Below are positions 46,301 through 51,785 of a stretch of 64,000 bases of DNA, piece after piece. Each line of letters begins with the position of its first letter. Positions within the stretch are counted from its first letter, which is position 1. A model generated the notes under the pieces. That model worked only from the letters and a program-made list of their open reading frames with translations, did not search any database and was not told where the DNA came from. Both the position numbers and the translations under genes were made by a program. The DNA is from Hyphomicrobiales bacterium. Its GTDB lineage: Bacteria > Pseudomonadota > Alphaproteobacteria > Rhizobiales > Rhizobiaceae. The stretch lies in the NCBI GenBank assembly GCA_900474095.1, contig UCOA01000099.1:1-64000 (forward strand), in the 5' to 3' direction.

Positions 46301-46864
46301 CGCGGCCAGCGTTTTCAACCGTGCCTCGGCCAGCGCCGCATGGCCCGACTTCAAGGCTATGTCAACCGGTCCACCCGACGCGCCGGTGAGCGCAATCAGC
46401 CCCTCCGTGCCGCCTTCCCGCAGCCAGGACAGCGCAATACGGACCGACTGGTTCCCCTCGCCACCGAGATAGGCGCGGCTGACGATATCGACGAGACGGA
46501 CATAGCCGGCATCCGTCGCCGCGATCAGCACGATCGCCGGAAGTTTCGCCAGGTGCTGGGCGTGCCCGCGCTTCTCGCCTTCGGCCTCGTCCTCCATGTC
46601 GATCGACAGCTGGCAGCCGATCAAGGGCTGCAGGCCATCGTCCATGCATTTCTGCGAGAACTCGAGCGCTGCAAACAGATTGTTGGTATCGGCGATGCCG
46701 ATCGCCGGCTGACCGTCGGCTACGGCCTTGCCGATGATCTTCTTGATCGGCAAAGCGCCTTCAAGCAGCGAGAATGCCGAATGAACGCGAAGATGCACGA
46801 ATTGCGGCGACGCGTTGTCCGAAACGCTGCCATCCCGTCGCTTGTCGCCTGTTGCGTCCGCCAT
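43358..46864 (-). CDS. dnaE: DNA polymerase III subunit alpha
   Basis: Replicative polymerase. 1168 aa, typical for DnaE1. N-terminal PHP domain ([20 protein letters not shown]) with part of the metal-binding residues retained; C-family polymerase core with [16 protein letters not shown] and the catalytic D431 and D433 in [38 protein letters not shown]; helix-hairpin-helix region and an OB-fold (about 1010-1090, [23 protein letters not shown]). Start ATG at 46864. A micropeptide gene with SOS control lies 147 bp upstream on the same strand. Confidence 0.97.
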   Translation of the reverse strand: [1168 protein letters not shown]

Positions 46865-47010
46865 TTGCGCACCCCGATTCCCGTGAGGGTTCAGGATATC
46901 CTGCTTCGGTCCTACGATGTCCAGATTTCATCGGCAGCAGCCGGGCTTTTTCCGGCCATCCGCCGCTTGTCCACAGGGGACGAAGGCAGGAAGCAACTGC
47001 CGCTAAAAAA

Positions 47011-47097
47011 TCACATGCCCATAATGATGATCGAAAAGCTGGCCACGAACATGGCGATCGAGGTGAAAGCTGCGAGGTCCCGAAGAAAGTCAGTCAT
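47011..47097 (-). CDS. SOS-controlled 28-aa single-span membrane peptide
   Basis: Short frame that conventional length cut-offs miss. ATG at 47095-47097, TGA at 47011-47013; starts MTDFLRDLAAFTSIA and continues MFVASFSIIIMGM, with a charged N-terminus (1-8) and one hydrophobic helix (9-28). GGGAG stands 7 nt before the ATG. An in-frame TAA within the operator region rules out a longer start. Directly upstream is a promoter with three GTTC half-sites spaced for LexA. In size, topology and SOS control it resembles SidA, the SOS-induced division inhibitor of Caulobacter. The role is inference; I cannot compare the sequences here. It precedes dnaE. Confidence 0.72.
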   Translation of the reverse strand: MTDFLRDLAAFTSIAMFVASFSIIIMGM

Positions 47098-47120
47098 TGC
47101 AAGGCTCCCTTTTCCGTTAT

Positions 47121-47156
47121 GTTCTTTTTATGTTCTATTTATGTTCGATCGTCAAG
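47121..47156 (-). promoter_or_regulatory. SOS promoter with overlapping LexA boxes (triple GTTC)
   Basis: Plus-strand view: GTTC at 47121-47124, 47132-47135 and 47143-47146, each separated by 7 nt (TTTTTAT and TATTTAT), i.e. two overlapping GTTC-N7-GTTC boxes. On the minus strand a CTTGAC -35 (47156-47151) is 17-18 bp before an AT-rich -10 (about 47127-47133), so the boxes cover the promoter. The predicted start is near 47120, about 23 nt before the micropeptide ATG. Confidence 0.8.
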
Positions 47157-47286
47157 CGGCAGATTGGAAATTGTCGCGGCGGGAAAATGGCATGGTAAAC
47201 ATTTTGGCTCTTCCCGGATTGCGAGGCATCTGGACGTCTTCCGATTGGCCAACTAATTTTACGCCACGACCATCGGGGAACGAACG

Positions 47287-47865
47287 ATGAAAATGCCACG
47301 GACCGCCGCGACGCTGTTTTTTTTCCTTTCCGCACTGACCGCGCAGGCGGCAGACATGATCGATCCCAGCCGGATCATTTCCGCGGCGACCGGCGATTGG
47401 GACAAGGATGGCAGCCCTGACCTTGCCTTGCTCGCAGAACCGCCGGAGGGCAGCGAGGATAGTCACGGCATCTATATCTACCTGAAGGGCGAGACCAACC
47501 GCCTTCAGTTGAAGACCTTTGCCCCAGACAAAGTCTGGGGCAGCGTGACAACCTATGGGCAGGAACCGTTCATCGAAGCCTTACCAAACGGCTCGATCCT
47601 GATCGCGTCACACAACGATGCCATCGGCCGCCATCGCTGGGAGCAGAAACTCACGATCGCCTACCGCAATTTTGACTTCGTGGTCGCCGGATACACTTAT
47701 ACGTCCTACGACACGCTCGATCTCGACAACACCACCAATTGCGATTTCAATGTCCTGACCGGCAAGGTCAAACTTGACGACAAGCCCGTTGCGGTCGCCG
47801 GAGCGATGATTTTCCTCAAGGACTGGGATGACGAAACCGGCCAGAAGGTCTGCCGGGCGCAATAA
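47287..47865 (+). CDS. Exported protein of unknown function with FG-GAP-like segment
   Basis: 192 aa with signal peptide (MKMPRTAATLFFFLSALTAQ; cleavage near AQA-ADM). The mature N-terminus carries GDWDKDGSPDLALLAE, an FG-GAP/EF-hand-like D-x-D-x-D-G loop that could bind calcium. Later EDSHGIYIYLKGETN and NTTNCDFNVLTGKV; the two cysteines, in NTTNCDF and at the C-terminus (KVCRAQ), may pair. Family not recognised. GGGGAA stands shortly before the ATG. It diverges from the SOS micropeptide. Confidence 0.75.
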   Translation: MKMPRTAATLFFFLSALTAQAADMIDPSRIISAATGDWDKDGSPDLALLAEPPEGSEDSHGIYIYLKGETNRLQLKTFAPDKVWGSVTTYGQEPFIEALPNGSILIASHNDAIGRHRWEQKLTIAYRNFDFVVAGYTYTSYDTLDLDNTTNCDFNVLTGKVKLDDKPVAVAGAMIFLKDWDDETGQKVCRAQ

Positions 47866-48433: not shown

Positions 48434-49135
48434 TTACAACTCGACTACCTTGCCGTCCTCGATGGTCACGCGCCGGTCCATGCGCGAGGCGAGCTCGTAA
48501 TTGTGCGTCGCGATCATGGCCGCAAGGCCGGACTGGCGGACGAGGGCCTCCAGCGCCTCGAAGACGTAACCGGCGGTTTCCGGATCAAGGTTACCGGTCG
48601 GCTCGTCGGCCAGCAGCACCAGCGGCGCATTGGCGACAGCGCGGGCGATTGCGACGCGCTGCTGCTCGCCACCCGAAAGTTCCGAGGGACGGTGTTCGGC
48701 GCGGTGGCCGATGCGCATGTAGTCGAGCAGCGCAGCAGCCCGTTCGCGCGCCTCGGCCTTGTTGAGGCCGGCGATCAGCTGCGGCATCATGATGTTTTCG
48801 ATCGCCGTGAATTCCGGCAGCAGATGGTGGAACTGATAGACGAAGCCGATGTCGTTGCGGCGGATCGCCGTGCGTTGCTCGTCGCCGAGCGTGCCGCAGG
48901 ATTGGCCGTTGATCAACACCTCGCCGGCATCCGGCCGCTCGAGCAGCCCTGCCAGATGCAAAAGCGTCGACTTGCCGGTGCCGGACGGCGCCACGAGCGC
49001 GACCGTCTGCCCCCCATGCAGGGAAAAGTCCGCACCCTTGAGGATCGACAGAACGCCCTCGCCCTGGGTGTAATGACGCTCGACGCCGGAAAGCTGCAAT
49101 GCCACGCGCGCATTCATCGTGTCTGTAATCCTCAT
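48434..49135 (-). CDS. lolD: Lipoprotein-releasing system ATP-binding protein
   Basis: ATPase of the LolCDE-type exporter that extracts lipoproteins from the inner membrane for delivery to the outer membrane. 233 aa. Walker [10 protein letters not shown] at 49-57, Q-loop in [11 protein letters not shown], signature LSGGEQQR at 153-160, Walker [13 protein letters not shown] (173-184). Starts immediately after the permease stop (ATG at 49135); an ATG at 49117 after AGGA is also possible. Confidence 0.94.
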
Positions 49136-50446
49136 TTATTCGTAGCGCAGAGCCTGAACCGGATCGAGGCGCGAGGCGCGCCAGGCCGGAAAGATCGTGG
49201 CAAGGAAGGACAGGCTGATCGCCATGACGACGACCGAAATGGTCTCGCCCGGGTTCATGTCGGCCGGAAGCTGGCTCAAGAAATAGAGCTCGGGGTTGAA
49301 CAGCGTCGTGCCCGAAATCCAGGAAAAGAACTGGCGGATGGATTCGACGTTGAGGCAGACGATGACGCCCAGCAGCACACCCGCGAAAGTGCCAACGATG
49401 CCGATCGCCGCACCCGTCATGAAGAAGATGCGCATGATCGAACCGGAGGACGCGCCCATGGTGCGCAGGATGGCGATGTCGCTGCCCTTGTCCTTCACCA
49501 GCATGATCAGGCCGGAGACGATATTGAGCGCCGCCACCAGCACGATCAGCGTCAGGATCATGAACATGACGTTGCGCTCGACCTGAAGGGCAGAGAAGAA
49601 CGTCTTGTTGCGGTCCCGCCAGTCGCTGATCAGTACCTGCCGGCCGGCTGCGTCCTCGATCGGCTGGCGCAGGTCGTCGACCAGATCCGGATTTGTGACG
49701 AAGAGCTCGATCGACTGGGCGATGCCTTCGGCGTTGAAGTAAAGCTGCGCCTCCTCGAGGGGCATGAAGATGATCGAGGCATCATATTCCGACATGCCGA
49801 TCTCGAAGATCGCCGAGACGGTATAAGACTTGACGCGGGGGTTGACCCCCATCGGCGTGACGTCACCCTCGGGCGCCACCAGCGTGATGGTCCCGCCGGC
49901 GGTAATGCCGAGCTGCTCGGCCATGCGCGAGCCGATGGCAACACCGGTTCCGGCGGCAAAGCCGACCAGATCGCCCGACTGGATATGGTCGGAAATGGAT
50001 TTCATCTTGGTGAGATCGTCGGCCCGCACCCCGCGCACCAAAGCGCCGGTGCCTGCCCCGCCCGGACCCGAGGCAAGCGTCTGCCCCTCGATCATCGGTA
50101 TCGCCATGGTCACGCCCCTGACGCCGGAAAACTTCGTCGCAAGATCCGCATAATTGTCGAGCGGCCCGTCGAGCGGCTGGACGATCATGTGGCCGTTGAT
50201 ACCGAGAATGCGCGAGATGAGCTCGGTGCGAAAACCGTTCATCACCGCCATGACGATGATCAACGTCGCCACGCCGAGCATGATGCCGATGAAGGAAAAG
50301 CCGGCAATCACCGAAATGAACGCTTCCTTGCGCCGGGAGCGCAGATAGCGCCAGGCCACCATGCGCTCGAACGTCGAAAACGGACGGCTCGACGGCGGCT
50401 GAACGGCGGCCGCTGCCTTGTCCTGCTCTAGCGTGGTGGCGCTCAT
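49136..50446 (-). CDS. lolC: Lipoprotein-releasing system permease (LolC/LolE type)
   Basis: Inner-membrane subunit. 436 aa with four membrane spans: one near 45-70 and three in the C-terminal half, and a large periplasmic domain (about 75-285) between. FERMVAWRYLRSRRKEAFISVIAGFSFIGIMLGVATLII is the typical N-terminus; C-terminal SLSFLATIFPAWRASRLDPVQALRYE is the MacB/LolC signature. Only one permease gene is present, so it may act as a homodimer. Directly followed by lolD; proS is 10 bp upstream on the same strand. Confidence 0.93.
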   Translation of the reverse strand: MSATTLEQDKAAAAVQPPSSRPFSTFERMVAWRYLRSRRKEAFISVIAGFSFIGIMLGVATLIIVMAVMNGFRTELISRILGINGHMIVQPLDGPLDNYADLATKFSGVRGVTMAIPMIEGQTLASGPGGAGTGALVRGVRADDLTKMKSISDHIQSGDLVGFAAGTGVAIGSRMAEQLGITAGGTITLVAPEGDVTPMGVNPRVKSYTVSAIFEIGMSEYDASIIFMPLEEAQLYFNAEGIAQSIELFVTNPDLVDDLRQPIEDAAGRQVLISDWRDRNKTFFSALQVERNVMFMILTLIVLVAALNIVSGLIMLVKDKGSDIAILRTMGASSGSIMRIFFMTGAAIGIVGTFAGVLLGVIVCLNVESIRQFFSWISGTTLFNPELYFLSQLPADMNPGETISVVVMAISLSFLATIFPAWRASRLDPVQALRYE

Positions 50447-50456
50447 CCCGGCTCCC

Positions 50457-51785
50457 TTATTTCGAAGCAGTCAGCTTGTTGATCGCAGCCTCGATGGTCA
50501 ACGTCTCGCGGGCGCCCGTCTTGCGATCCTTGAGCTCGACCTCGCCGTTTGCCACGGAGCGTGGACCGGCAATGATCTGCACCGGCACCCCGATCAGGTC
50601 GGCGGTCGCAAACTTGGTGCCGGCGCGGTCGTCCTTGTCGTCATAGAGCGGATCAAGACCTGCCCCGTTGAGCGCGCCATAGATGGTTTCGCAGGCGGTG
50701 TCGCAGGCGACGTCGCCGGATTTCATGTTGATCACGACCGCATCGAAGGGGGCGATCGACGCCGGCCAGATGATGCCGTTCTCGTCATGCGAGGCCTCGA
50801 TGATCGCCGGAACCAGCCGAGTCGGGCCGATGCCGTAGGAGCCCATATGCACGGTATGTTCCTTGCCGTCCGGCCCCTGCACCTTGGCGCCCATCGCTTC
50901 GGAATATTTCGTGCCGAAATAGAAGATGTGGCCGACCTCGATGCCGCGCGCGGACACCTTGGAGGCGTCGTCAATGCCGTTGAAAGCCGCCTCATCGTGC
51001 ATCTCCGACGTGGCGGCATAGAGCGACGTCCACTTGTCAAAGATCGCCTTCATTGCAGCCGCATCCCAGAAATCGGTGTCTTCGGCCGGAACGTCGAAGT
51101 CCAGGAAATCCTTGTGACAGAAGACTTCCGATTCGCCGGTGTCGGCGAGGATGATGAATTCGTGGCTGAGATCGCCGCCGATCGGGCCGGTGTCGGCACG
51201 CATCGGAATGGCGCGAAGACCCAGCCGCGAGAAGGTGCGCAGGTAAGCCGCGAACATCCGGTTATAGGAGTCCACCGCGCCTTCGCGGTCGAGATCGAAG
51301 GAATAGGCGTCCTTCATCAGGAATTCGCGCGAGCGCATGGTGCCAAAACGCGGCCGGATCTCGTCGCGAAATTTTAGCTGAATATGGTAGAGGTTGAGTG
51401 GCAGGTCCTTGTAGGACTTCACATAGGAGCGGAACACATCCGTGATCATCTCCTCGTTGGTGGGGCCATACAACATCGGCCGTTCCTGGCGGTCCTTGAT
51501 GCGCAGCATTTCCTTGCCGTAAGCGTCGTACCGGCCGCTTTCCTGCCAGAGTTCGGCCGATTGCAGCGTCGGCATCAACAATTCGACGGCACCTGCCCGG
51601 TTCTGCTCTTCGCGGATGATGGTATTGACTTTGTCCAGCACCCGCTTGCCGAGCGGCAGCCAGGTATAGATGCCGGCCGACTGCTGTCGAACCATGCCGG
51701 CACGCAGCATCAGGCGATGCGACACGATCTCCGCTTCCTTCGGGTTTTCCTTCAGAATGGGCATGAAAAAGCGGGACAGGCGCAT
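50457..51785 (-). CDS. proS: Prolyl-tRNA synthetase (short, editing-free form)
   Basis: Charges tRNAPro. 442 aa, compared with about 570 for E. coli ProRS; motif 2 and motif 3 regions are present ([25 protein letters not shown]; the [14 protein letters not shown] motif 3), but the inserted editing (INS) domain is missing: the segment after [13 protein letters not shown] joins straight to the catalytic core. C-terminal anticodon-binding domain [23 protein letters not shown]. Such short forms occur across alphaproteobacteria, which then rely on separate trans-editing proteins. Confidence 0.95.

Follow-up and report, generated by a model that had tools for sequence, protein, structure and literature searches.

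SidA of Caulobacter crescentus is described as a 29-aa inner-membrane protein that interacts with FtsW and FtsN and is suppressed by mutations in ftsW and ftsI (PMC4211646). The same paper describes DidA, which is likewise a small membrane protein induced by damage and inhibits this divisome complex, but differs from a SidA-type peptide in its length of 71 aa and in being SOS-independent; it calls yneA, divS, chiZ and sidA unrelated genes. A Caulobacter mutant lacking both lexA and sidA reportedly does not form filaments (PMC12700426). For YneA, FtsW is the reported target (PMC13396833). YneA, DivS, ChiZ, SulA and SosA are SOS-induced division inhibitors, the role that we propose here for a peptide gene of rhizobia. 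The literature that we found names no SOS division inhibitor for rhizobia. Because rhizobia undergo division arrest in nodules, any rhizobial division inhibitor is worth testing. Ribosome profiling of Sinorhizobium meliloti detected a translated ORF, sORF25, in the 5'-UTR of dnaE1; no function was given, the authors suggest a uORF role, and the main text of the paper has no occurrence of LexA, SidA or DNA damage (PMC10117765).

We analyzed a 64,000-nucleotide stretch of DNA from a member of the Rhizobiaceae (contig UCOA01000099.1 of assembly GCA_900474095.1), referred to as the window. The initial annotation had described a 28-codon frame with a correctly spaced GGGAG, a TTGAC element, a triple GTTC repeat and dnaE downstream, and each of these features is correct base for base (Table 1). 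Read from the sequence, the ATG of the peptide lies at 47097 and its stop ends at 47011 on the minus strand, leaving a 146-bp gap between the stop and the ATG of dnaE (46864). On this strand the order is TTGAC, 4 bases, GAAC-ATAAATA-GAAC-ATAAAAA-GAAC, GGGAG and ATG, with the GAAC units at 47146-47143, 47135-47132 and 47124-47121. The best 17-residue hydropathy of the 28-aa peptide is 2.16, which fits one membrane-spanning helix. The promoter had also been called well formed. This holds for the recognizable TTGAC but not for the -10 region, where no hexamer could be recognized, and a sigma-70 consensus scan of 46700-47400 found no promoter-like site.

Table 1. Features of the peptide locus in the window.
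Feature	Position	Strand	Basis or remark
SidA-type peptide gene, 28 aa, MTDFLRDLAAFTSIAMFVASFSIIIMGM	47011..47097 (stop included)	minus	charged N-terminus and one hydrophobic stretch
GGGAG ribosome-binding site, 7 nt 5' of the peptide ATG	47105..47109	minus	sequence; neighbouring loci
Triple LexA-type operator GAAC-N7-GAAC-N7-GAAC (plus strand: GTTC repeats)	47121..47146	minus	sequence
TTGAC, probable -35 core; expected -10 region under the operator	47151..47155	minus	sequence
dnaE, DNA polymerase III alpha subunit, 1168 aa	43358..46864	minus	
Possible own dnaE promoter, TGGACA-N17-GATATC	46895..46923	minus	pattern in 21/88 loci; missed by the sigma-70 consensus scan
lolD-like ABC transporter gene, conserved neighbour	48434..49135	minus	best NCBIfam match LolD, below its cut-off
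lolC/E permease gene, conserved neighbour	49136..50446	minus	
proS, conserved neighbour	50457..51785	minus	

Neither Pfam nor NCBIfam gave a match to the window peptide, and it was unmatched in a phage collection. Searching 61 genomes and counting matches at E 8e-4 or better, we found the peptide in 30: every one of the 26 genus-sample genomes, one of which is the window's, and 4 of the 11 other genera of the family. Two weaker matches fall outside this count, in genomes G041 (E 0.73), where the match sits before dnaE, and G043 (E 0.90). dnaE lies beyond the peptide on the same strand in all 30 loci. A scan of named genomes confirmed 88 stretches, some sharing one genome; the best 80 of the 88 were returned and come from Rhizobium, Pararhizobium, Shinella, Neorhizobium, Agrobacterium, Ciceribacter, Pseudorhizobium and other genera. 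Agrobacterium cavarae carries the peptide, as does one strain of S. meliloti. In this strain, Ak57, the homologue MADFVRDLAAFASMSLFIVSISVIALGL is preceded by a triple box and lies between lolD and dnaE; it is not in the PLSDB gene table, which is incomplete. With two PLSDB records added, there are 88 distinct close loci, and in every one of them dnaE is the next gene on the same strand, which bears out the synteny suggested at the outset. Across the class, a narrow rhizobial model matched 14 of 289 genomes, namely the window's and 13 weak ones (E 0.004-0.1).

The 30 loci and the best 80 of the 88 stretches form a set of 110 loci with 79 distinct coding sequences. No locus has an in-frame internal stop, but the loci were picked by similarity to the peptide, so the open frame by itself is weak proof of a gene. 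Among the 79 sequences, pN/pS was 0.17 between the window and 23 near loci, 0.23 between the window and all others, and 0.30 over all pairs; synonymous change is close to saturated. The frequency of minor letters by codon position was 0.18, 0.05 and 0.37. A ratio of synonymous to non-synonymous change near 1 had been named as evidence against a gene, and pN/pS values of 0.17-0.30 do not show it. The 28-codon frame is a conserved gene whose amino acids are under purifying selection.

We examined the operator in 86 distinct rhizobial loci. In 56 of them the 75 bp before the ATG contain an exact GAAC-N7-GAAC; allowing one AAAC half-site raises this to 81, and 25 have an exact triple. The corresponding counts in a control interval 300-375 bp upstream were 0, 1 and 0. 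A box in the opposite orientation was found in none of the 86 loci, either near the ATG or in the control interval, and box spacings of 6 and 8 occurred in 2 and 0 loci. Of the 86 loci, 84 have TTGA[CT] no more than 75 bp from the ATG, compared with 2 of 86 in the control interval. In Neorhizobium and its relatives no exact pair remains and the outer half-sites are degenerate. Conserved boxes with a lost frame would have spoken against a gene; the reverse was seen, with the frame persisting despite degenerate boxes, as in Neorhizobium. The claim that overlapping boxes exceed chance also stood: the 6.4-Mb genome has 4 occurrences of the exact triple, at 3 sites, and none of the backward pattern. 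Two of these sites have AT-rich spacers, and the third is GC-rich and inside an ORF. The plain pair occurs 247 times, compared with 146 for its backward control, so a single pair means little. An ImuA-like gene of the same genome (52 bits, model cut-off 150) is preceded by the same type of box. Peptides from order- and family-level relatives, which were chosen by motif and not by box, have an exact box within 95 bp in 36 of 41 cases and an opposite-orientation pair in 6 of 41, with 0 in the control interval; for Caulobacteraceae peptides the exact box was found in 23 of 42, with 0 in the opposite orientation and 0 in the control. The relaxed box pattern for these two sets was looser than the rhizobial one, and the control counts given for them are those of the exact box. 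By its sequence, the promoter holds a LexA-type operator that is conserved in place and orientation.

The peptide had been likened to Caulobacter SidA. We compared the two through dnaE-upstream stretches from 11 family-level genomes and, among the matches listed, from 70 order-level genomes, 40 class-level genomes and 50 Caulobacteraceae. The Caulobacteraceae were found via G123, which of 66 genomes had the best match to Caulobacter CtrA (87%, with an approximate query), and the family name rests on this CtrA match, the SidA model and gene content. Their ORFs were screened for hydrophobicity, Shine-Dalgarno sequence, ATG, length and position, with no motif required. A hydrophobic ORF of 28-30 aa precedes dnaE in 42 of the 50 loci among the matches listed, and 39 of these 42 peptides are exactly 29 aa long. 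NF033228, the NCBIfam model of SidA, matches all 15 peptides chosen from 37 distinct ones; two that were scanned singly scored 72 and 50.8 bits (cut-off 35). The window peptide gave no match to this model at E up to 10 and did not reach the 35-bit cut-off. None of the 13 rhizobial rows of alignment A1, which include the window's, matched at E up to 10. Of 24 diverse rows (A3) scanned, only the two from Caulobacteraceae matched, together with one other sequence at 13.2 bits, which is below the cut-off.

Comparison of the two families as profiles supports homology. hhalign aligned columns 1-19 of the rhizobial family with columns 1-19 of the Caulobacteraceae family, ungapped from the Met, with a probability of 89.2 and an E of 2.2e-6. 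R6, D/E7, A10, L/F11, S13, V/I14, F17 and V18 are common to both, and the pattern R-[DE]-x2-A-x2-S-x3-F is conserved over the whole set. The start-anchored score was the best of 13 offsets and was reached by 9 of 5000 column permutations, modest statistics for so short a hydrophobic peptide, as is the effective depth of 1.7 of A1. At E<0.1, a purely rhizobial model matched 16 of 50 Caulobacteraceae loci on the dnaE strand and none of the 50 on the opposite strand; at a stricter threshold it matched 7 of 50, each among the matches listed. The likeness is limited to the first 18-19 residues, and the W-M-x-C part of the Caulobacter peptide is absent from the rhizobial peptides. A Caulobacter SidA peptide gave no match in PDB.

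The gene neighbourhoods also agree. An ORF for an inosine-uridine nucleoside hydrolase lies beside the peptide on the opposite strand in 4 of 5 Caulobacteraceae genomes (two were tested and both were confirmed by Pfam); the fifth has another gene at this place. This is as expected from C. crescentus, where CCNA_02005 is annotated as an inosine-uridine nucleoside hydrolase (PMC3667746), CCNA_02004 as sidA (PMC10769358) and CC1926 as dnaE (PMC1839093). That dnaE is next to sidA in Caulobacter follows from the genomes that we viewed. proS, lolCE and lolD precede the peptide in the window, in S. meliloti and, judged by inspection, in a Caulobacter genome. The order of lol genes, peptide and dnaE is conserved, with detached or inverted copies as exceptions. 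The window peptide thus resembles C. crescentus SidA (CCNA_02004) in size (28 versus 29 aa), in its one hydrophobic stretch, in its GAAC-N7-GAAC operator, in its place before dnaE and in residues 1-19. It differs in lacking an NF033228 match, in its C-terminal half, in its triple operator and in the gap to dnaE, which is 146 bp in the window and about 20-60 bp in the Caulobacter loci viewed. The SidA-like label is upheld by homology and shared gene position, but not by the family model.

An iterated rhizobial model was run over 4374 short ORFs on both strands. Of the 171 dnaE-upstream stretches, 106 gave a match on the dnaE strand and 1 gave a match on the opposite strand, among the matches listed; the first, rhizobial-only round gave 36 and 0, likewise among the matches listed. 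The iterated matches comprise 45 of 70 order-level stretches (one being the window), 5 of 40 class-level stretches, 49 of 50 Caulobacteraceae among the matches listed and 7 of 11 family-level stretches. Relatives are absent at dnaE in the remaining 25 of 70, 35 of 40, 1 of 50 (among the matches listed) and 4 of 11. The single other-strand match, L139, is inverted between lolD and dnaE; it closes a longer ORF and is preceded, in its own orientation, by GAAC repeats. In L135, L139, L140 and L142, all of family f11, a longer ORF follows GAAC repeats and seems to have the SidA-like segment as its C-terminus; the repeats of L142 have a spacing of 6.

We searched the whole genomes of 26 bacteria without the peptide at dnaE. 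In 6 of them (G390, G447, G421, G032, G033 and G404) a detached peptide with a GAAC-N7-GAAC operator was found. These copies lie before a 396-aa ORF or antisense genes instead of dnaE. In G421 and G032 the peptide still follows the lol genes, and in G404 it is separated from dnaE by about 1.6 kb that include an antisense regulator-like gene, with dnaE downstream. Counting G032 and G033, the peptide is present somewhere in 9 of the 11 sampled family-level genera. Nine of the 26 genomes gave weak matches only, with L320 and L325 not convincing, and 11 gave no match, including G030, G031 and G472 (2.0, 1.1 and 1.5 Mb). The six detached copies indicate that the peptide and its operator form a unit that does not need dnaE, and this persistence apart from dnaE indicates that the peptide is not merely a dnaE leader. 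G033 also carries, on contig C37, a second SidA-like segment (L316), with no operator, in a longer frame near a regulator-like ORF.

The initial annotation had suggested that SOS transcription may run into dnaE. Judged by a simple perfect-stem rule, none of 88 loci has a terminator-like hairpin between peptide and dnaE, and a terminator scan of the window gap on the minus strand found none. TGGAC is present in the gap of 76 of 88 loci (13.8 in shuffles), and TGGAC-N17-19-[GT]ATATC in 21 of 88 (0.0 in shuffles). With TGGAC-type signals conserved in this way, a separate promoter for dnaE is probable; dnaE may also receive extra transcripts on damage. An RNA element in the leader was rejected, since Rfam has no family in 46700-47400 and the fold is not better than that of shuffles (z -0.79).

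Two other motifs were seen in the gap. A GANTC site, the methylation motif of CcrM, lies at 46876-46880 (minus strand); all 88 loci have a GANTC within 150 bp upstream of the dnaE domain start, compared with 35.7 in shuffles, and cell-cycle control of dnaE is possible. At 46967-46975 (plus strand), between peptide and dnaE, stands TTGTCCACA, a DnaA-box-like 9-mer. TT[AG]T[CGT]CACA occurs between peptide and dnaE on this strand in 25 of 86 rhizobial loci and on the other strand in 0 of 86.

Our preferred reading, to which we assign a probability of about 0.8, is that the window peptide is a diverged orthologue of Caulobacter sidA, repressed by LexA, induced by damage and blocking division at FtsW/FtsI/FtsN. 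The gene, its operator, conservation, synteny and homology to SidA can be read from the sequence. LexA on the tandem GAAC repeats would block the promoter, with its TTGAC -35 and the operator over the -10 region. After DNA damage, RecA-driven cleavage of LexA would free the promoter, and the 28-aa peptide would be made. It would enter the inner membrane as a single helix, with the charged R-D end presumably cytoplasmic, and hold the FtsW/FtsI/FtsN septal wall machine inactive, so that division would be delayed until repair is done. We infer LexA binding, induction, membrane insertion, binding to FtsW and FtsN, and the division block; by analogy with Caulobacter, the most likely effect of the peptide is to stall the synthesis of septal wall after damage.

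The same features could be read in other ways. TisB of E. coli is an SOS-induced toxin that depolarizes the membrane, and a peptide of this sort would slow growth rather than inhibit the divisome. Size, hydrophobic stretch and SOS operator fit either activity, but homology and synteny with SidA, the lack of an RNA family in 46700-47400 and a conserved R-[DE]-x2-A-x2-S-x3-F in place of an amphipathic pattern (judged by inspection) make such a toxin very improbable. A SidA homologue might instead have kept its SOS control while its membrane target in rhizobia is a different one, such as the polar growth machinery. Although the unipolar growth described for Rhizobiales and the different C-terminal halves of the rhizobial and Caulobacter peptides would suit such a change, what the whole set conserves is the common N-terminal core, and nothing points to another target, so we think a switch of target unlikely.

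A further possibility is that the frame is a uORF or leader peptide whose translation tunes dnaE, the operator serving SOS control of dnaE itself. The 88 gaps without a terminator-like hairpin and the position of sORF25 in the S. meliloti dnaE1 5'-UTR, for which uORFs were proposed (PMC10117765), would fit this arrangement. The six genomes that keep peptide and operator apart from dnaE, and the L139 copy that is inverted relative to dnaE and has its own boxes, led us to reject it as the main role. The pN/pS values, which indicate conserved amino acids and not just an open frame, and a leader RNA that is not unusually stable and belongs to no Rfam family, likewise argue against it, and we consider the chance that tuning dnaE accounts for the peptide very slight.

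With a SidA-type inhibitor as the preferred reading, rhizobia gain a concrete candidate for an SOS division inhibitor. SidA is known, and its rhizobial member appears to be new as far as we found: the literature found does not name SidA in rhizobia, and an earlier mention is possible in subscription journals. A SidA-type peptide also offers an explanation for the translated orphan ORF before dnaE1. sORF25 lies in the same stretch of the dnaE1 5'-UTR as the homologous peptide gene of strain Ak57, and the two ORFs are candidates for being the same. In our scans NF033228 recognizes the Caulobacteraceae peptides and not the rhizobial ones, yet our results suggest that the SidA family spans both orders; the residues that matter (R-[DE], A, S and F) would then be readable from natural variation. 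More tentatively, at somewhat under even odds in our judgement, SidA may be an ancient alphaproteobacterial checkpoint that has stood beside dnaE since before the rhizobial and Caulobacter orders split. Because the gap has no recognizable terminator, damage may then increase the supply of polymerase along with division arrest, both from a single LexA-controlled start.

Other SOS-type boxes were noticed in the window's own genome. Three of them, on contigs C59, C64 and C112, read GAACATAATA[AG]GAAC, and each precedes a related ORF of 77-91 aa with the common pattern ..DCR.LR.QLALT..MS.GFTRGWT.SF..; one copy was scanned against NCBIfam and gave no match. By their sequences, these ORFs constitute a putative multi-copy SOS-box family. 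On contig C216 (8302-8338), four GAAC at 11-bp steps are followed, after about 146 bp, by a 104-aa ORF whose end is hydrophobic. Finally, a 3.7-Mb record titled S. meliloti pSymB (CP090106.1) carries dnaE and proS and may thus be a chromosome filed as a plasmid.
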